27,053 bases of DNA from a virus, in IMG/VR virus record IMGVR_UViG_3300030406_003009, positions 1-27,053 of that record; one strand, given 5' to 3'. Under the pieces are notes generated by a model. The model was not told the DNA's origin. It made no database searches and worked only from the letters and a program-made list of their open reading frames with translations. This document shows, in pieces, positions 2,241 to 27,053 of this stretch. The position numbers were made by a program, and so were the translations under genes. Numbering within the stretch: the first letter of the stretch is position 1; each line of letters starts with the position of its first letter.

Positions 2241-5200
2241 CCGCGCTCGACGAGTTAGAGGGCCTGTTGTTGGGCGTCTGCTAAGTTCAATAAGCTCTCT
2301 CTCAAGCTGGCGTTCGATCCTGTCCACCGCAGCGATAGGATCTCGGTACGAACCAACCGTTCCACCGAATCCAAATAGTGGGCCACCAAGCCCTTCTTTA
2401 CGCCACTCAACAGAGTCAGGACCAATGCCCATGCCCGCAAGAATCCGAGGAACATCCTCGATAGCTCGCTTCTGACCAAGCATAAGAGCACCAACTTGGA
2501 ACATACGGAACATGGCGTTGGCTTCCTCACCCTTGAACCTGTACTGCTTGCCATCTATAAGAGCGATGTCTTGGCGAACATCAGCATTGGGAACCTGCTC
2601 CAACTCAAACAAGCTGATGAACTCATCCTGCATTCCAAAGGCAGCAGCAGCAGCAAGATATTGGGGAGGCATGTACCCACTTGGTGCTCCACTCTTACCA
2701 TCCAGTGTGGTCACATCAAACAATGCTTGAAGTCGAGGATCACTCAATAAAAACTTACCAGTGCCTTTTACTCTTTCACCAATCGGAAAAGAATCCCGAT
2801 ACCTGCTGTCCATGATCAAACCAATGATGTTGGCAATGCCTGTAAACGGCTCTGCAAAAGGCGCATCTGGACCAAGAGAACCAGCAACCCACTCTCTAAA
2901 CTTGCCTTTGTAGTCTTTCCACAGACGGGTCTTCATCCAGTCAGGCTCAAGCACCCACTCTTCCATGTCCTTTCTTTGACCATTGATCCAGTTCAAAGTA
3001 CCAGCCATGTTGTTCAAAGCTCTACCGTCACGGGCAAATGCAAGTGCTGTCTCTACCGCCATGTTGTAGCGAAAGGCAAAGAAAGCCATGTTGCGAGCCA
3101 TAGTTTGAGCGGCCCTGTTGTTGAGAGAGGCGTAGTCAAGAAGAGAAGCACGGGCCAATGCAGCAGCATCAGACTGCTTCATGCCTACTTTCAAAGCATT
3201 AGCAAACACAGCCATGCGTTGGGCGTTGTCAAACTCCTCAGACACTGAGGTCCAGATGGTCTTGCGGTCTGGCCTCAAGAACTCCCAGTATCGAGTACGG
3301 TTGACGCCACTTGTACCAGGCACCCTAAGCATTGCTTCAATAGGCTTGCCACCCGGACCAAGCCTCGATGCACGGATAGCTCCTTGCAAGGTATCGGATC
3401 CAAACTCAAACGTAGCTTGCGAGAATCGCAGTGCGTTCTTTTCTACCGCTTCCTCAAAAGCCCCTTTGGTCCAGATCTTTCCAGTGGCAGACCTAAAGGC
3501 AATGTCACCCTCGCTGCCTGTGTACATCATGCGAAGAGGATCGTATGCGCCCGGACCATTGATTCCACCTGCACGCCTAAACGCATTGACAAAGCCTTGT
3601 GCCAGAGTGCTTGGTGTCTTGAGTGCAATGTTGAGCGCATAGCCAGGGACTGTAATGGCACCAATGATTGAGTTGGTAAGTGCGTTTACGCCAATGAATC
3701 GAGTGCCAGGAATGATGGAGCCACCCAGCACACCCGTCACTGTTGTCTTTCGAGTGGTGTTCCACAACGAAAGAATTGAAGAACCAAGGAACCTGTCCTG
3801 CTCTCTAAGCATGCTGAGTTGTTTTTCGATCTTACCCCTAAAGTCAGGAGACGCCATTCTGTCAGCAAACTCTCTCATGCGAGAATCAAACATCATCACA
3901 CCGTTCTCACCAAACGGCTTGGATGGATAGGCAAGCCCTCTTAGGCTCCTGTCTCCAGCAGTAGACTTTGTGCCGAGGCCACTGAACACACCCCGCACAT
4001 CGTTCATGTTAATGCCAGCAACCGACTTCACATAAGCAGGGACGATGATCTTCTCAAGCTCAGTAAGCGTAGGGCCGTCAGGGTTCTTTGCTACAAAGCC
4101 TTTGATAGCATCCCTTAGATCCTTGATAGATGCCTGCGTTGTCTTGGTCATCACGATGCCAGCAACAGTACCTGTAGCTGCGTTATACATGCGCTGAAGA
4201 TCGTCTTGAGTTGCAAGCCCTCCCTTTGTAAACAAGTCACGCATAATGGCTGTTGCAACGGTTCGTCTGTCAGCATTGCTTGTTTTGAATGCACGACCAA
4301 CAATCTTAGACAAGTCGTTTGCAAGCTCTTCAGGAATGTCGTTGTTCTTGGCAATGTTCTTGAACAACTCGATCCTTGCTGACTCGTCTGCACGAGTGGG
4401 AACCTTGACCAACAACGAGGGATAAAGATCCTCAAAGTTTCTAACAGCTTGTTTGTAGACCTCTTCACTAACGTTGTTGACAACGTAAGCAGACAACAAA
4501 GCGCTAAGGTCATCGTCACCAGTCAGCCGACCATAGAATGTCTGTCTCTTAATTGCAGACTTTTCTAAATCAACAGCCCTGCCTGTACTGCGACGAACAA
4601 CCTCGATGGCCTCCTTCATTGTCTCAATGGTCAGCGGTTTTTTAGCAAGACCTGCTTTTCGCAACGCTGCCTGAAGCTCTCCGTTGCCACCAAAGTAGGC
4701 ATCCAAAGCACCCTGCTGTTTTACAGCAAAGAAGATGTTGAGGATGTTGGAGTAGTCCTGAATGTTGTCGCCAGAGCTTACACGGTTCAAGACAGAGTTC
4801 ATGCCTGCCACTGGATCAGAAGACTTCTGAGCCTCCAAGATCATTGTCTCGGCTTTCTTTGCCGTGTCGTTTAGCGTCTTGATTGTTTGTTCTTGGAACT
4901 CAATCAATGCAGGGTCTGGTGTCTTACCAAACATATCTGCCTTGGGGCGAGACCACAACAAGCCTCGTTTGCCAGGGTTGGCAACAAGCGCAGCGTAGTC
5001 AGACTGACCACCAAAGAATGCCCGTGTTCCCTTGACTGCTCGCTGTGCATACTGAGCAACTGCAAGGTTTCTACCCTGTCCAAGCTCTGCTGCTTTTCTT
5101 GACAATAGCTGTGTACCGTCACGAACAGCAAAGGCTGTGATGGGCAACTCATCGAGGATGATCTTATTCGACGCCAAGCTGTGAACAATGTTGTACTCAT

Positions 5201-20198: not shown

Positions 20199-21883
20199 TA
20201 CTGGGTAAATCCTACGCCACCACCCAAGAGCATGTCAGACACGTTCTGAGGTGTAGGGGTATTGATGAGATCCTGCGCGGTGGGCGGCTCGTCAGGGTTA
20301 GAAACGCCAGGAATCCCTGCACCTGCCTGCTGTTGCTGCATCTGCTGCATTTGAGCCTGTGCTGCCTCAAGGAAAGTCTCAGGAAGACCCATAGTCCGCA
20401 CGATTTCCTCCAGAATCTTGATGTTTGGAACACCCAAAGCCTGCAAGAGTTGTGCGTTTTGCAGCAATCGCTGCTCACGAATAGCTTCAGAGATAGGCGT
20501 AGACGCCTGATCTGCTGCGAAAATCTGGAAATCACCCGTCAAATCGTCAGGCTTTACCGTCTGAGCCTCGCCATCCAGCAGAACCATGGTCGGAACCTTG
20601 GCTTCTTCAATAAACAAAGCAATCATCAGCAGGTAAACCCTGCCCATCATTTCGATTGCTCCGTCTCGCTCACGAGCCATTCGGCCAATCTCACTCGTTG
20701 TGTACGCTGCCAGTGCTGCAATCTCCGTTGCAGTTGCCTTTGTAGCCTCTCCACGAGTAAATGCTGCGGTGACAGAGCCCGAATCCTTGTCTCGAATGAC
20801 ATCTTGCATGTACCGAGAGACTTCAGCGGGGAGATTCTGGTGTGGAACGGGGCGGATAATCGTGTCCAACGGATCATCTGACTCTACCTCTACAAACAAA
20901 CCATCAATGCCACTGGTAACCTGAGCCATCTCATCGTCGGTCATGGCTCCTTTCTTCACCAACCACTGCCGAGAAGCCTTCCGAACAGCGTTTGCTTGGA
21001 AGGAACGGATGATGTTCATTTCGTACAACTGGTCATATATCCGTTTGATAGCCGAATATCCGTGCATCGGCTGGTCAGGAACACGGTTGTAGTACAGCGG
21101 AACAATCGGAGGATGCGGCTGATCCTCAGAATCGCGGAAAGGAATGAACTCAGCACTGTCGAGCCACTTGTCTCCACGCTCAGGACACCACCAGTACAGC
21201 TTGTCCTCCACCATGTCGTACATCTCAACGATCTTGACGTACTTAAACATGGGGGAAACAGGGGATTCACGCTCACTTTGGGGCGTGTAAGAGTCGTATG
21301 CGTCCCCATTGTGCTGGTCAAAGTAGCCAATCAACTCGCCACCGATGTCGTCAAACTTCCCGCCAAAGCGTTTCTTGGCTTCTTGCACGGTCATATAGTA
21401 GCAATGACCCACAAACCGCTGAGTATCCCAACGAGCAGCATCCCGATCCACAATGATCTGCCAAGGAGGTACAGCCACAGGTAGCACCCTTTCATAGATG
21501 TTCTCCCGTTCAGTTACTGTCAGCTTCAGGAAGCTCATGGGGTAGATAAGAGCCATGCGTGAGGCGTTCTCAATCTCGTTTCTGCTGCCAAGAAGGAAAT
21601 GATTGATGATGCTTTGTGACTTGTCGGCATTGCCTTTACCAAGGATTCCGCTCTTCACAGAAACAGCAGGGTTCTTAGCAAACAAGGAAGCCTGAAAGGA
21701 CTCGATGTAGCCATACCCATCATTAGTCTGAATGCGAATCTGGGTGTCTACCTGCAACTCTTGGTCGGCTTCATCCCAGAAGTCCATCTCGTAGACCGAC
21801 TTGTAGCGCAACATCTCTTCACGACGATCTCCCCAATAGTTGTCATGTGCATCGAGAATGACTCTCAGATCTTCTGGCTTCAT
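20198..21883 (-). CDS. Portal protein
   Basis: A 561-residue protein, close to the size of podovirus portals. Visible features: an N-terminal helical part (YWGDRREEMLRYKSVYEMDF, residues 17-36), a wing region (QASLFAKNPAVSVKSG, 64-79), and WQIIVDRDAARWDTQRFVGH (141-160), a strand set common in phage portals. Then follow the family-typical segment TRGEATKATATEIAALAAYT (376-395) and the long stem-to-crown helices after it (MARERDGAIEMMGRVYLLMI). A Gln/Met-rich tail (QAQMQQMQQQQAG) precedes the end. It forms the dodecameric ring through which DNA is packaged and to which the adaptor binds. It lies between terL and the small basic genes and is coupled to both by TAATG. Confidence 0.85.
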   Translation of the reverse strand: MKPEDLRVILDAHDNYWGDRREEMLRYKSVYEMDFWDEADQELQVDTQIRIQTNDGYGYIESFQASLFAKNPAVSVKSGILGKGNADKSQSIINHFLLGSRNEIENASRMALIYPMSFLKLTVTERENIYERVLPVAVPPWQIIVDRDAARWDTQRFVGHCYYMTVQEAKKRFGGKFDDIGGELIGYFDQHNGDAYDSYTPQSERESPVSPMFKYVKIVEMYDMVEDKLYWWCPERGDKWLDSAEFIPFRDSEDQPHPPIVPLYYNRVPDQPMHGYSAIKRIYDQLYEMNIIRSFQANAVRKASRQWLVKKGAMTDDEMAQVTSGIDGLFVEVESDDPLDTIIRPVPHQNLPAEVSRYMQDVIRDKDSGSVTAAFTRGEATKATATEIAALAAYTTSEIGRMARERDGAIEMMGRVYLLMIALFIEEAKVPTMVLLDGEAQTVKPDDLTGDFQIFAADQASTPISEAIREQRLLQNAQLLQALGVPNIKILEEIVRTMGLPETFLEAAQAQMQQMQQQQAGAGIPGVSNPDEPPTAQDLINTPTPQNVSDMLLGGGVGFTQ

Positions 21884-23421: not shown

Positions 23422-23791
23422 CGTCACTACCCAGCCACTTCTCTAAAGCGTCGGCACCACCCTTCACCTTCACCTTAGCATCGGTCAACTGCAACTTGGA
23501 CCTGTCCAGCACGATCTTAGCCGCCTCAGTCCTTTCCTTGTTCGTAGAGTCCTCGTCCGCCATGATGTGCCTAAGAACCTCTACAGCCTCGTACACAGCG
23601 TGACTCAAAGCCATCTGTGCGCCAGCAGCTTCCTTGTTCTTGTAGATCGTCAACTCAGCCGAGAACTCAGGCTCCTTGGTCCACTTCCAGAGCGTAGCCC
23701 TGCCAACACCTACCTTTTCGGCAGCCTTGGGTATCGTGTGACCAGAAGAGAGCAGTCTCAACGCTTCTTGCTTCTTTTCGCTTAGTGCCAT
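23411..23791 (-). CDS. terS: Terminase small subunit candidate with helix-turn-helix
   Basis: A 126-residue protein. An N-terminal helix-turn-helix is clear: LSEKKQEALRLLSSGHTIPK and then AAEKVGVGRATLWKWTKEPE (residues 3-42), a terminase small-subunit type DNA-binding domain. The middle (about 44-100) is helical and suits ring formation, and the end is basic then acidic (TDAKVKVKGGADALEKWLGS, then DDES). It directly precedes and overlaps terL. I chose the ATG at 23791: the frame runs 54 codons further back, but that part crosses a strong hairpin at 23872-23901 and looks non-coding. No good ribosome site precedes the ATG. It would recognise the packaging site, often located in or near its own gene. 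Confidence 0.75.
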   Translation of the reverse strand: MALSEKKQEALRLLSSGHTIPKAAEKVGVGRATLWKWTKEPEFSAELTIYKNKEAAGAQMALSHAVYEAVEVLRHIMADEDSTNKERTEAAKIVLDRSKLQLTDAKVKVKGGADALEKWLGSDDES

Positions 23792-23871
23792 GCGGGGAGA
23801 GTAACATATGGAAATGTTTCCCGGATTTGTAATAACAATATTGAAAACAAAATTCGGGGTCCGTTTAGGGG

Positions 23872-23901
23872 GGCCCCTCTCAGCAAAGCTGAGAGAGGGC
23901 C
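23872..23901. repeat. Strong inverted repeat (hairpin) upstream of terS
   Basis: GGCCC CTCTCAGC (23872-23884) and GCTGAGAG then GGGCC (23888-23895, 23897-23901) pair over 13 base pairs with a three-base AAA loop and a single bulged A at 23896. It lies 81 bases upstream of the terS start. No T-run follows on either strand, so it is not a textbook intrinsic terminator. It could be an operator, a packaging-site element or a structured 5' leader of the late RNA. Confidence 0.7.
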
Positions 23902-24007
23902 GAACTTCGACATTGAACATAATGGAGATTATCAGACTATTCAATGATTTCAACTATTTAGCCAACAATCAACTCCCCCTTCAATAAAAGAAGGAAGACC
24001 CCACCCC

Positions 24008-24095
24008 TTTAGATTCTTCCTTTAGATTCTTCCTTTAGATTCTTTGGGTTCATTCTTCTTTATATAAAAGAGGATTCAGATTCTTTAGATTGTTT
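24008..24095. repeat. Tandem 13-base repeats TTTAGATTCTTCC with degenerate copies
   Basis: Two exact copies of TTTAGATTCTTCC follow each other without a gap (24008-24020, 24021-24033), then a third as TTTAGATTCTTTG (24034-24046). Two looser copies lie further on, TTCAGATTCTTT (24075-24086) and TTTAGATTGTTT (24084-24095). On the minus strand the unit is GGAAGAATCTAAA. Direct repeats of this size at a divergent control region resemble iterons of a replication origin or repeated operator sites. This is inference. Confidence 0.65.
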
Positions 24096-24223
24096 GCAAT
24101 ATCCCACAAATCCTTCCCCCTTCAAGCCAACCACAGACCACACAGACCAACGATAAATACTCACCGACTAAAAAAAAATTCGATGGACGTCGAGCCTGTT
24201 TGGTGGAATCTGAAAAAAAATAG

Positions 24224-24252
24224 TTGCGCTTCAGTCTACCCCATGTTCTATT
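24224..24252 (+). promoter_or_regulatory. Weak rightward promoter candidate for the small-gene cassette
   Basis: TTGCGC (24224-24229) and TCTATT (24247-24252) are 17 bases apart and match the sigma70 consensus at three and four of six positions. They lie about 50 bases upstream of the first cassette gene, behind an A-tract that could act as an UP element. The match is weak; spacing and position are the main argument. Confidence 0.2.
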
Positions 24253-24302
24253 GAGAATGTCAGCAACGACACACACCAACCAACACACACCGAGACAGAC
24301 AC

Positions 24303-24494
24303 ATGAACACCTCAGAGAAACTTGAGAGCCTGGAATCAGAACTGCGCGAAACCCAATGGGAGTTTGATCACTGGTTAGCTAGCGAGGAAGCCAACACGAT
24401 GGAGGACGAACAATACGAGATTCTTTACTGGGAACAGGCGCAAAAGATTGACGACCTCACAGCCCAAATCATTGAGATGATCAACACCCTCTAA
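24303..24494 (+). CDS. Small acidic coiled-coil protein (63 aa)
   Basis: A 63-residue acidic protein, MNTSEKLESLESELRETQWE onward, with heptad-like spacing over most of its length and Trp residues at about 19, 24 and 43. No known family is recognised. It is the first gene of the rightward cassette and carries the CACCAACCA leader 20 bases before its ATG, the longest spacing of the five. Early phage genes of this size and charge often bind host proteins, but the sequence gives no direct clue. The absence of a standard ribosome site (the leader is almost only A and C) is notable. Confidence 0.6.
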   Translation: MNTSEKLESLESELRETQWEFDHWLASEEANTMEDEQYEILYWEQAQKIDDLTAQIIEMINTL

Positions 24495-24522
24495 CCCCCA
24501 CCAACCAACCAAGGATAAGACA

Positions 24523-24864
24523 ATGACTAACCCAACCACCCCACTCCAGACTGCTGTTCACGACTGGTACCAGGCACAGGTGGACGACGACTACACCACC
24601 GCCATCGACGACCTACTCCAACACGGCTGCCAGTCCGGCATGGTGTCCGACCTCATCTACTACACCGACACCACGGCCTTCTACCGCAAGCATAAGAAAG
24701 AAATCTGGAGACTGCTTGACGAGTTGCTTGACGACACTGGACTGGAGCGCACACAAGACTTGCTTCGAGACTGGGACGGATCCGACAGGTGGGCAGAAGA
24801 GACGCACAACCAAAACCTTCTGGCATGGTTTGGCTTTGAAGAGACTGCTCGGAGGATGCAATGA
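24523..24864 (+). CDS. Conserved phage hypothetical protein (DUF7222-like, 113 aa)
   Basis: A 113-residue acidic helical protein. The central block DDLLQHGCQSGMVSDLIYYT followed by DTTAFYRKHKKEIWRLLDEL (residues 27-66) and the end NLLAWFGFEETARRM (98-112) are a pattern I know from many phage hypothetical proteins; I believe the family is DUF7222, from memory. Function is unknown. It has the clearest ribosome site of the cassette, AAGGA inside AACCAAGGATAAGACAATG. The stop overlaps the next tiny frame as ATGA. These proteins usually sit among early genes, which fits the cassette being early-expressed. Confidence 0.75.
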   Translation: MTNPTTPLQTAVHDWYQAQVDDDYTTAIDDLLQHGCQSGMVSDLIYYTDTTAFYRKHKKEIWRLLDELLDDTGLERTQDLLRDWDGSDRWAEETHNQNLLAWFGFEETARRMQ

Positions 24865-24941
24865 CTCAAGCACTGATTGAACTATTCCTGCTCTCAACCA
24901 TCACTTACTTTGGCTTCCTTGCCATCACCAACCACGGATAG
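24861..24941 (+). CDS. Membrane microprotein candidate (26 aa)
   Basis: A 26-codon frame, MTQALIELFLLSTITYFGFL followed by AITNHG, starts in an ATGA overlap with the previous gene and ends just before the next one. Residues 4-22 form a hydrophobic helix long enough to span a membrane. Its last codons and stop (ACC AAC CAC GGA TAG) are made of the CACCAACCA leader of the following gene, so one stretch serves as coding end and leader. Upstream GGAGGATGCA holds GGAGG five bases before the ATG. Size alone makes it uncertain, but start, ribosome site and composition agree. Confidence 0.55.
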   Translation: MTQALIELFLLSTITYFGFLAITNHG

Positions 24942-24945
24942 ACAA

Positions 24946-25251
24946 ATGACAACGATCTTAACCATTGACCCTACTAACAACGCTCACACGTACAAAACAG
25001 AAGAGGGGCTATCGTTTACCTATGATCCAAAAAACAAAACCTGGACTAACGGAGACACAACCCACACCACTGACTGGATCATAGGAGATATTGAAAACAG
25101 AATGTATGAGGACGCCTTTAGATTTGATGACTGCTTTGGGGTGCATAGCACGCTGAGCCCCGAAGAAATCAGGGGGGCAAGAGCTGCTTTCTTAGCAGAC
25201 CAGGAAGCTTTGTCTTCAACCATTAAGCTGATTGAAACCCTTACGAGCTAA
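24946..25251 (+). CDS. Hypothetical 101-aa protein
   Basis: A 101-residue protein. The first half is beta-like (MTTILTIDPTNNAHTYKTEE, then GLSFTYDPKNKTWTNGD) and the second helical and acidic (STLSPEEIRGARAAFLADQE). No family is recognised. I chose the ATG at 24946 because it follows the repeated leader CACCAACCACGGATAGACAA; a frame-open start at 24877 would run through the microprotein and its leader. Base composition is more AT-rich than the gene before it, which hints at a different origin within the cassette. Confidence 0.65.
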   Translation: MTTILTIDPTNNAHTYKTEEGLSFTYDPKNKTWTNGDTTHTTDWIIGDIENRMYEDAFRFDDCFGVHSTLSPEEIRGARAAFLADQEALSSTIKLIETLTS

Positions 25252-25276
25252 CCTCCACCAACCACAGGGCAGAACT

Positions 25277-25432
25277 ATGAACACCTACAAAAAACTGAAC
25301 GAAGAAATCTGTTTGCCACTCACTCCCGAGAACCTGAAACAAGTACTCGAAAGAATCCAAAAGTGGAAGGAGTGCAAGACCTGCAAAGGATTCGGCAGCA
25401 CTGACAGCGGGAAGGCCTGCCCTAACTGCTAA
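25277..25432 (+). CDS. Small zinc-finger protein with DnaJ-type CxxCxGxG (51 aa)
   Basis: A 51-residue protein ending in a zinc-binding pattern: CKTCKGFG (C33, C36) and CPNC (C48, C51), i.e. CxxCxGxG then CxxC, as in half of a DnaJ Cys-rich domain or a small zinc ribbon. The protein stops right at the last Cys. The N-terminal 30 residues form a basic/acidic helix (LTPENLKQVLERIQKWKE). I chose the ATG at 25277 because the CACCAACCA leader precedes it by 12 bases; the frame is open to 25232 but that would overlap the previous gene. It may bind a partner protein or nucleic acid. Confidence 0.65.
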   Translation: MNTYKKLNEEICLPLTPENLKQVLERIQKWKECKTCKGFGSTDSGKACPNC

Positions 25433-25442
25433 CCCCCACCAC

Positions 25443-25477
25443 AGGGGAAGGGTAGGGTGACCCCCTACCTGACCCCT
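25443..25477 (+). repeat. Two-step hairpin between cassette genes
   Basis: AGGGG (25443-25447) pairs with CCCCT (25473-25477), and GGTAGGG (25451-25457) pairs with CCCTACC (25463-25469). A 3x3 internal loop separates the two stems and a five-base loop closes them. No T-run follows, so a Rho-independent terminator is not well supported; attenuation, RNA processing or RNA stability are options. The 100-base gap it lies in holds no gene that I can see. Confidence 0.5.
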
Positions 25478-25532
25478 GCCCCTACCTCAGAACGGCGTAC
25501 AGCGCCAGCAAACACCAACCACGGATAGAACA

Positions 25533-25721
25533 ATGAACAAATACATCATCACGGCAGAGAAGACACACGACAACGGAGAGTCATGGGAGACTTGGAGACT
25601 TGAGGTCACCGGCTACCATGCTGCACTAAGAGTTGCGAAAGCAATGCACGCTGCGAATACGGGCGCTGTTCTATTGCGGAACGACAAAACAGGTAGAGCC
25701 AGACTAATCAACCACCCGTAA
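25533..25721 (+). CDS. Hypothetical 62-aa protein, last of the cassette
   Basis: A 62-residue basic protein, MNKYIITAEKTHDNGESWET onward, with a beta-helix-beta look (WRLEVTGYHAALRVAKAMHA, then TGAVLLRNDKTGRARLINHP). Small phage proteins with this order are common but I do not recognise a family. The CACCAACCA leader and GGATAGAACA precede the ATG. Its last 18 bases overlap the end of the helicase gene on the other strand (25704-25721), so rightward and leftward transcripts meet here without a spacer and no terminator is visible between them. Confidence 0.65.
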   Translation: MNKYIITAEKTHDNGESWETWRLEVTGYHAALRVAKAMHAANTGAVLLRNDKTGRARLINHP

Positions 25722-27053
25722 CCGCGCATTTACTGGTGCGGCGAACTCAGCCCGGTGCCGGTCCCCTACAAACTTAGTGCGACCGCACCATCTGAGGTCA
25801 ATCACTGACAGAGCCCCGGTCCTGCGCTTCTTACTGTACACCTGCAAAGTATCGCGCGGCCCCTTGATATCTGCTCGAGGGTCGCGCTCCCGATAGTAGT
25901 CTGGACGGTGGAGGGTGTACACCTCTTCAGCAGTTTGGTGTGCCACCGAGGAGAACTGTATATCAAACATCTCGGGTGGGGCTGGTGCCTTGCCTTGCTT
26001 CTCACCTGATACCTGTGCGCCAAGTAGAATCGGGACACCGAGGTCGCTCGCTAACTCCGATAGCATCACCGACTTGTGTGCTGTTTGCTGAACCCGATCC
26101 CCCAACCTGACACCGAGCCCACTGCTATCGTGAATGGCCTGCAAGTAATCGATGATGATGCAGTCAAGCCTGCCCTGTGCGTGTAGCTGCCTTGACTTGG
26201 TGCAGATCTGCTCAACTGTCAGCCCCGTCCCGGTGATGGTGAGGGGCTTAGACCTGAGCCACTCCACTTGCTCAACTGTCCTGTCGTACCAGGCTGCAAC
26301 GTCCGCTGCTATGTCGAGGTCATCATCCCCCGATGCTCGGATGTCGGCTAACTCCTTGGTAAGAAGTGCCCACTTCCTACCCTCAAGTCCTGCCCTGGAT
26401 CTCGCCATATCCGAGAGCCGCCTCTGCACTGTCGTCTCCACGCCGTGGATGTAGACCTTGAGTCCCTTGGCAAGCATGCCCATAGCCATCGTGTTTAGCA
26501 GTGTCGTCTTTCCTGAGCCGCTACGCCCTGCGAATAGGGACAACCCCTCTCGACTGACACCGACAAAGTTCGGATCGTCATCCCATTCGGGGATACCACT
26601 CGGCATGTACGCAAGCTTGGTCCCCTCAGCCACCGCTACCAAATCATCAATGAGTGCATCGGCTGCCTCGTCCATGCTGGTAGTGCTCAAGTCTGAGATG
26701 TTCGAGGCTGCTCCTACCATCTCAACGCTTGCTTGGTAGGCATCGGTCTTCCCTTGCTCCAACTCGTGAGAGATAACGCGCAGTTTGCTGATCAGCTTTC
26801 TCTTCTGGCTGGCCTTCCTCATCTCCAAGATGTAGCGCTCGATGTTCAGGCCAATGGCACCTCGATCTCCCAGTGACATCACATATTGGAAGTCAATATC
26901 TGGATTCGATTCTTTCAACAGGTACTTAGAAATAGATTCGGTACTGACGGGCAAGCCCTTGTCCCACCTCTTGACCATCAACTCGTAGAGCTTGGAGTGC
27001 ATCTCGATTTCGGTGAAGTCATCAGGACTAAGGTCTAACTGATTGGGAGACAC
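25704..27053 (-). CDS. DnaB-type replicative DNA helicase, start at or beyond window edge
   Basis: 449 codons are present and the frame is open at the right edge, where the first codon is GTG. RecA-like motor motifs are all visible: Walker A GRSGSGKTT (176-184), glutamate-region GVETTVQ (204-210), Walker B IIIDYLQ (299-305), H3-type LGAQVSGE (344-351) and the arginine-finger region SKKRRTGA (407-414). The N-terminal part resembles a DnaB N-terminal domain (ELMVKRWDKGLPVSTESISK, 24-43) but appears to lack the usual first 20-30 residues, so I expect the true start outside the window. It would unwind the phage genome at the fork. It runs leftward and its 3' end overlaps a rightward gene. It is more GC-rich than the fibre genes. 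Confidence 0.85.
   Translation of the reverse strand: MSPNQLDLSPDDFTEIEMHSKLYELMVKRWDKGLPVSTESISKYLLKESNPDIDFQYVMSLGDRGAIGLNIERYILEMRKASQKRKLISKLRVISHELEQGKTDAYQASVEMVGAASNISDLSTTSMDEAADALIDDLVAVAEGTKLAYMPSGIPEWDDDPNFVGVSREGLSLFAGRSGSGKTTLLNTMAMGMLAKGLKVYIHGVETTVQRRLSDMARSRAGLEGRKWALLTKELADIRASGDDDLDIAADVAAWYDRTVEQVEWLRSKPLTITGTGLTVEQICTKSRQLHAQGRLDCIIIDYLQAIHDSSGLGVRLGDRVQQTAHKSVMLSELASDLGVPILLGAQVSGEKQGKAPAPPEMFDIQFSSVAHQTAEEVYTLHRPDYYRERDPRADIKGPRDTLQVYSKKRRTGALSVIDLRWCGRTKFVGDRHRAEFAAPVNARLRVVD

Follow-up and report, generated by a model that had tools for sequence, protein, structure and literature searches.

A G-free nonamer precedes start codons in a gene cassette of an uncultured tailed phage and in apparently unrelated phages

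The fragment analysed here (the window, 27,053 bases, as long as the virus record itself) comes from an uncultured tailed phage and carries a six-gene plus-strand cassette (24303-25721) in which five genes are preceded by exact copies of one nonamer, CACCAACCA. We judge it rather probable that this nonamer is the core of a phage start-associated leader, (C)ACCAACCAAGGA-N4-9-ATG, that gives each gene independent ribosome entry and makes it portable. The cassette lies between the structural genes (terminase, portal and others, on the minus strand) and a DnaB-type helicase gene, also on the minus strand, at the right end of the window. Its features, and one further copy of the nonamer, are the following.

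20957..20965, plus strand: sixth exact copy of CACCAACCA, antisense within the portal gene, probably not a leader
24221..24270, plus strand: conserved block TAGTTGCGC ... GTCAGCAACGAC upstream of cassette gene 1, conserved in relatives G002, G003 and G006, less closely in G004
24274..24282, plus strand: CACCAACCA, leader of gene 1 (ATG at 24303)
24303..24494, plus strand: cassette gene 1, 63 aa, no family, one weak match below the cut-off
24499..24517, plus strand: leader of gene 2, CACCAACCA-ACCAAGGATA, the nonamer plus a Shine-Dalgarno core
24523..24864, plus strand: cassette gene 2, 113 aa, DUF7222, with a homologue in G002 (80% amino acid identity)
24861..24941, plus strand: microprotein gene, 26 aa, in ATGA overlap with gene 2, without a leader
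24926..24940, plus strand: leader of gene 3, CACCAACCACGGATA, shared with the 3' end of the microprotein gene
24946..25251, plus strand: cassette gene 3, 101 aa, no family
25256..25269, plus strand: leader of gene 4, CACCAACCACAGGG, nonamer copy at 25256
25277..25432, plus strand: cassette gene 4, 51 aa, weak match to phrog_3931
25443..25506, plus strand: RNA-like intergenic element, a hairpin (25443-25477) and a small hairpin (25494-25506), directly 5' of the last leader
25513..25527, plus strand: leader of gene 5, CACCAACCACGGATA, nonamer copy at 25513
25533..25721, plus strand: cassette gene 5, 62 aa, no family

All six copies of the nonamer, a word composed of C and A only, lie on the plus strand of the window. 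Five of them (at 24274, 24499, 24926, 25256 and 25513) end 20, 15, 11, 12 and 11 nt before the cassette ATGs at 24303, 24523, 24946, 25277 and 25533 respectively, which bears out the preliminary description of exact copies 11-20 bases upstream of five of six cassette genes; the GGATA-type bases that it reported downstream in three leaders are likewise present, at 24513-24517, 24936-24940 and 25523-25527. Its further statement, that the motif is confined to this strand and this cassette, holds for the strand, but the copy at 20957 breaks the part about the cassette. Because that copy is kept at the same place of the portal gene, as coding sequence, in most relatives, codon constraint and not a leader role probably accounts for it. 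None of the 26 other window ORFs of at least 60 aa has the nonamer upstream. Every cassette gene that follows a gap is tagged with the leader, since the single leaderless gene, that of the microprotein, overlaps its predecessor (ATGA).

Counted against shuffles of the whole window, as had been suggested at the outset, the six observed copies compare with a mean of 0.43 and a maximum of two. Local dinucleotide shuffles of the cassette gave a mean of 0.053 copies, with none of 5000 reaching five, and in shuffled sets of the five leaders a single 9-mer was common to three at most, against the five observed. These local shuffles, together with the permuted-word control described below, led us to reject chance or composition as the source of the repeats. 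On the cassette strand A and C are abundant (0.32 and 0.28), and ordinary Shine-Dalgarno leaders in such a strand might share a word for compositional reasons; we regard this as highly improbable, since besides the two controls the leader is conserved across gene turnover and recurs in Arthrobacter phage Sonali.

Relatives of the window were drawn from a terminase search, which gave 20 loci, and a DnaB search, which gave one (G001, 98% identical); few of them are complete, and their ORF annotation is mechanical. Among named phages no close DNA relative of the window was found. In the close relatives the terminase is 87-98% identical and the cassette genes are mostly unrelated, and the leader (C)ACCAACCAAGGA-N4-9-ATG, a spacing that holds as a rule, recurs in G001, G002, G003, G004 and G008, the relatives with a cassette (four nonamer copies each in G002 and G004). 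In G008 and G005, part of the cassette genes show no more than looser forms of the leader, and the more distant relatives G005 and G016 carry looser CCAAC/CTAAC leaders. An all-versus-all blastp comparison of the leader-bearing genes returned few homologous pairs (the DUF7222 genes of the window and G002, one G006/G008 pair involving a terminal fragment, and two G005/G008 pairs), the genes being of different families; gene 2 is the only leader-bearing gene of the window with a close homologue in a relative's cassette, where it occupies a different position. That close relatives carry this leader in front of non-homologous genes fits the proposal, made in the preliminary description, that leader and gene are exchanged as a module. 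Gene 4 encodes a product that by eye appears zinc-ribbon-like (CxxC...CPNC). Enterococcus and Staphylococcus phages, too, encode DUF7222 proteins, with ~40% identity to that at 24523-24864. The junction of the small and large terminase genes is contiguous in the window (23421), unlike that of G001 (L085), where an extra 135-aa gene (31645-32052, contig coordinates), by eye resembling a DNA adenine methylase, is inserted.

DNA homology between the window and its relatives often ends at a leader or start codon: with respect to gene 1 at ATG+2 in both G002 and G006, to gene 2 at ATG-24 (G002), and to gene 5 at ATG+11 (G004) and ATG+19 (G001). Leader and start positions cover 21% of the cassette, and the five ends are a small sample and, the comparisons being related, not an independent one. 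The leaders of genes 3 and 5 both read CACCAACCACGGATAGA, a form that G001 and G004 lack at the corresponding position. A further trace of turnover may lie in the microprotein gene, 24861-24941, which encodes MTQALIELFLLSTITYFGFLAITNHG and whose final residues are read from the gene 3 leader, as had been noticed before. We take this gene to be real because its membrane-like product has homologues of ~25 aa (MTQALIELxFLxACFYAGWLxLPKH) in G001 (at 1050), G002, G005 and G008 (at 3732); these follow different upstream genes, with stop-start overlap in several phages, and in the window the conserved C terminus is replaced by residues from the leader of the next gene. The homology ends, the form shared by genes 3 and 5, and this replacement could all reflect a repeat that serves mainly as a recombination linker, its short homology at each gene start aiding exchange and translation being incidental. 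We find this improbable, given that selection on a functional leader would leave ends at leaders too, and that a linker requires neither the fixed strand, nor the short Shine-Dalgarno distance, nor the absence before overlapping genes.

The RNA-like element is also found in G001 (L084, ~1420-1490) and G004 (L095, ~3760-3830), and it is kept before the last cassette gene though that gene differs between relatives. The arms of its main hairpin, AGGGG..GGGTAGGG/CCCTACCT..CCCCT, are predicted to pair strongly, the mini-hairpin is GGCGYACAGCGCC, and the consensus fold of the three sequences reaches -32.4 kcal/mol. No two-sided covariation was seen among the three, and Rfam gave no match for 25443-25506 or elsewhere in the cassette.

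In most genes the nonamer adjoins or closely precedes the Shine-Dalgarno core (AAGGA/GGATA); the gene 4 leader has CAGGG, and that of gene 1 has no clear core. In a profile anchored on GGA, nearly all positions from -12 to -3 are A or C. The predicted mean unpaired fraction is 0.67 for cassette leaders versus 0.45 for structural-gene leaders (p=0.0007), and the nonamer itself is predicted to be 0.84-0.90 unpaired. Compared with sliding windows across the cassette, several of the five leaders do not stand out in openness, and low structure alone does not prove function, because the composition already yields it. We propose that the leader acts on the mRNA as an unstructured, G-free landing segment coupled to the Shine-Dalgarno core; this segment would raise or insulate ribosome entry, and each small early-type gene would be translated independently of its neighbours. 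Because the leader is self-contained and nearly identical before each gene, leader-plus-gene units would be portable, and could be gained, lost or swapped without loss of expression. In E. coli, CA-rich sequence near starts stimulates translation (PMC4611024). Of the initiation roles suggested in the preliminary description, a translation enhancer agrees with the position of the leader 5' of the Shine-Dalgarno core, with its predicted openness and with its absence from the overlapping gene alone, and a host-specific initiation mode is disfavoured by the bacterial genomes sampled (see below). Pairing of CCAACC with GGUUGG near the 3' end of 16S rRNA was considered and is not favoured, the order relative to the Shine-Dalgarno being wrong for simultaneous pairing; the 16S segment containing GGUUGG normally lies in a helix.

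The nonamer might instead be a DNA element, a small promoter or operator for each gene, as the ESAS repeats of cluster K mycobacteriophages proved to contain SigA-like promoters (PMC11373665). To this we give very little chance here. The distance from copy to ATG is 11-20 nt, most copies occupy gaps of 4-28 nt, and one is inside the preceding gene; no -10/-35 pattern was seen, nor any promoter-like site in 23750-25800; and a single conserved block resembling a promoter was seen, that upstream of gene 1. Because this block (24221..24270) has no sigma-70 consensus match, we infer rather than recognize its role, which is probably that of promoter or 5' end of the cassette transcript.

Among viral sequences, an extended form, CACCAACCAACCAAGGA, occurs at 61 loci, compared with four for a composition-matched permuted 17-mer (15 times rarer). 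Outside the family an ATG ORF begins 3-12 nt after CACCAACCAACCAAGGA in 33 of 57 loci, versus 7% at control offsets, and in other-phage loci with the discovery sites excluded such an ORF follows AACCAAGGA in 23 of 32 cases and ACCAAGGA in 28 of 53. The start association of AAGGA in motif-bearing phages rises from 16% alone to 53-72% in ACC context; since the loci were picked for carrying the motif and include near-duplicates, these rates apply to motif-bearing phages and not to phages generally. With near-duplicates collapsed (31 representatives), ACC still outranks all other trinucleotides preceding AAGGA in start rate (15/33 versus 17%).

Arthrobacter phage Sonali (MK411746), cultured on Arthrobacter globiformis, contains 17 nonamers. 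Nine lie at most 35 nt from an annotated start, where about 3% (2.9%) would be expected, and these start-associated copies are nearly all 10-21 nt from the start; two more stand before ATG ORFs (gp35 and gp99), so that 11 of the 17 precede starts or ATG ORFs, and none of the 19 structural-arm genes is preceded by the nonamer. Judged by leader position, the annotated starts of gp35 and gp99 (minus strand, ~31270 and 61001) look too far upstream. Equal frequency at non-leader positions, which the preliminary description had named as evidence against a leader, was found neither in the window nor in the relatives nor in Sonali. Similar leaders occur in Rhodococcus phage Weasels2; one of them, AAAGGATAAGACAATG, almost matches the tail of the leader before gene 2 of the window. 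No such leader was seen in Roseobacter phage CRP-7 or Octadecabacter virus DB2, both of which were examined for it. The likeness to the Arthrobacter and Rhodococcus phages tentatively suggests an actinobacterial host for the window phage. Host assignment from the terminase and DnaB matches was dropped, these matches being too distant. Bacterial genomes yielded eight matches to the long form in 257 Gb, and a sample of 296 Actinomycetota genomes yielded six versus three for a permuted word; on these samples a host ribosome-binding-site convention is tentatively disfavoured as the source of the leader.

A plain unstructured leader would have no obvious need for one particular 9-base word. That the permuted word is nevertheless much scarcer is a hint that the sequence itself is recognized. 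One candidate, raised in the preliminary description as a common RNA-binding regulator, is an operator function: a phage- or host-encoded RNA-binding protein, or a small RNA, would bind the word and switch all cassette genes together. Consistent with an operator are the preference for the exact word over C/A-rich strings (61 loci against four for the permuted control), the predicted single-strandedness of the nonamer beside the start, and the limitation of the start-associated word to non-structural genes in the window and Sonali; a precedent exists in T4 RegA, an initiation-region repressor that acts at ~30 initiation regions through unstructured sites (PMC3014915). However, no candidate regulator gene was identified, and the word's presence in apparently unrelated phages (Sonali and several uncultured groups) would need a shared host factor, whereas bacterial genomes are not clearly above background for the leader; we therefore consider an operator doubtful. 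A bolder idea, to which we give a similarly small chance, is that CACCAACCA could be a sequence-specific translation signal common to unrelated phages, read by a conserved ribosomal component or a phage-induced factor, the early genes forming an exchangeable pool, tagged by the leader and preferred for translation in infected cells.

Whatever reads it, a start-associated leader for independent ribosome entry, the reading we prefer, is of interest in that it stays nearly invariant while the downstream genes change, appears in apparently unrelated phages and has a simple, testable form. The leader is a practical marker for true start codons, which suggests re-annotating Sonali gp35 and gp99, and it also marks tagged accessory genes in metagenomic phages.

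The role of phage start-associated repeats has been an open question since 2011; such repeats (SAS) were described in cluster K mycobacteriophages (PMC3203893), and their role is still stated to be unknown (PMC11373665). Like the SAS, the window leader is a short asymmetric word before the start codons of genes of different families, conserved beyond the needs of 16S pairing (PMC3203893), but the SAS, GGGATAGGAGCCC, overlaps the Shine-Dalgarno, whereas the window word is G-free and lies just upstream of it. On inspection of the leaders examined, neither the SAS consensus GGGATAGGAGCCC nor the 17-bp inverted repeats of the ESAS were present. The 18-bp motif of Microbacterium cluster EC phages (PMC7302621), of unknown function, likewise lies in the same orientation in small gaps, 5' of the ribosome-binding sequence and mostly before non-structural genes, but differs in sequence (TAGaCTATaGGTgTaAgC) and in its distance from the start (21-30 bp versus 11-20 for the window leader). 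Cluster EG 18-bp inverted repeats (PMC7302621) are also near starts (14-22 bp) and kept despite differing flanking genes; they consist of inverted GATCAACCNNGGTTGATC, whereas the window word is asymmetric. E. coli CA-repeat enhancers (Martin-Farmer and Janssen 1999, cited in PMC4611024) resemble the leader in that C/A-rich sequence near the start raises ribosome binding, but the repeats studied lie downstream of the start codon and the window leader upstream. A text search of the open-access literature found no description of the nonamer leader, including that of Sonali, and among the matches listed for the motif letters (8 of 25) all titles were unrelated to phages. In Sonali the leaders share the exact nonamer, in most cases with AGGAG after it, at 10-21 nt from non-structural starts, but on both strands and over a larger region, in a phage for which no likeness to that of the window was noticed apart from the leader. 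Repeated, in the same orientation to the genes, just upstream of starts, before genes of different families and outside the Shine-Dalgarno core, the window word is, judged by its letters and placement, of the start-associated-repeat kind but, because it differs from each in sequence, a member of neither the SAS nor the EC family.
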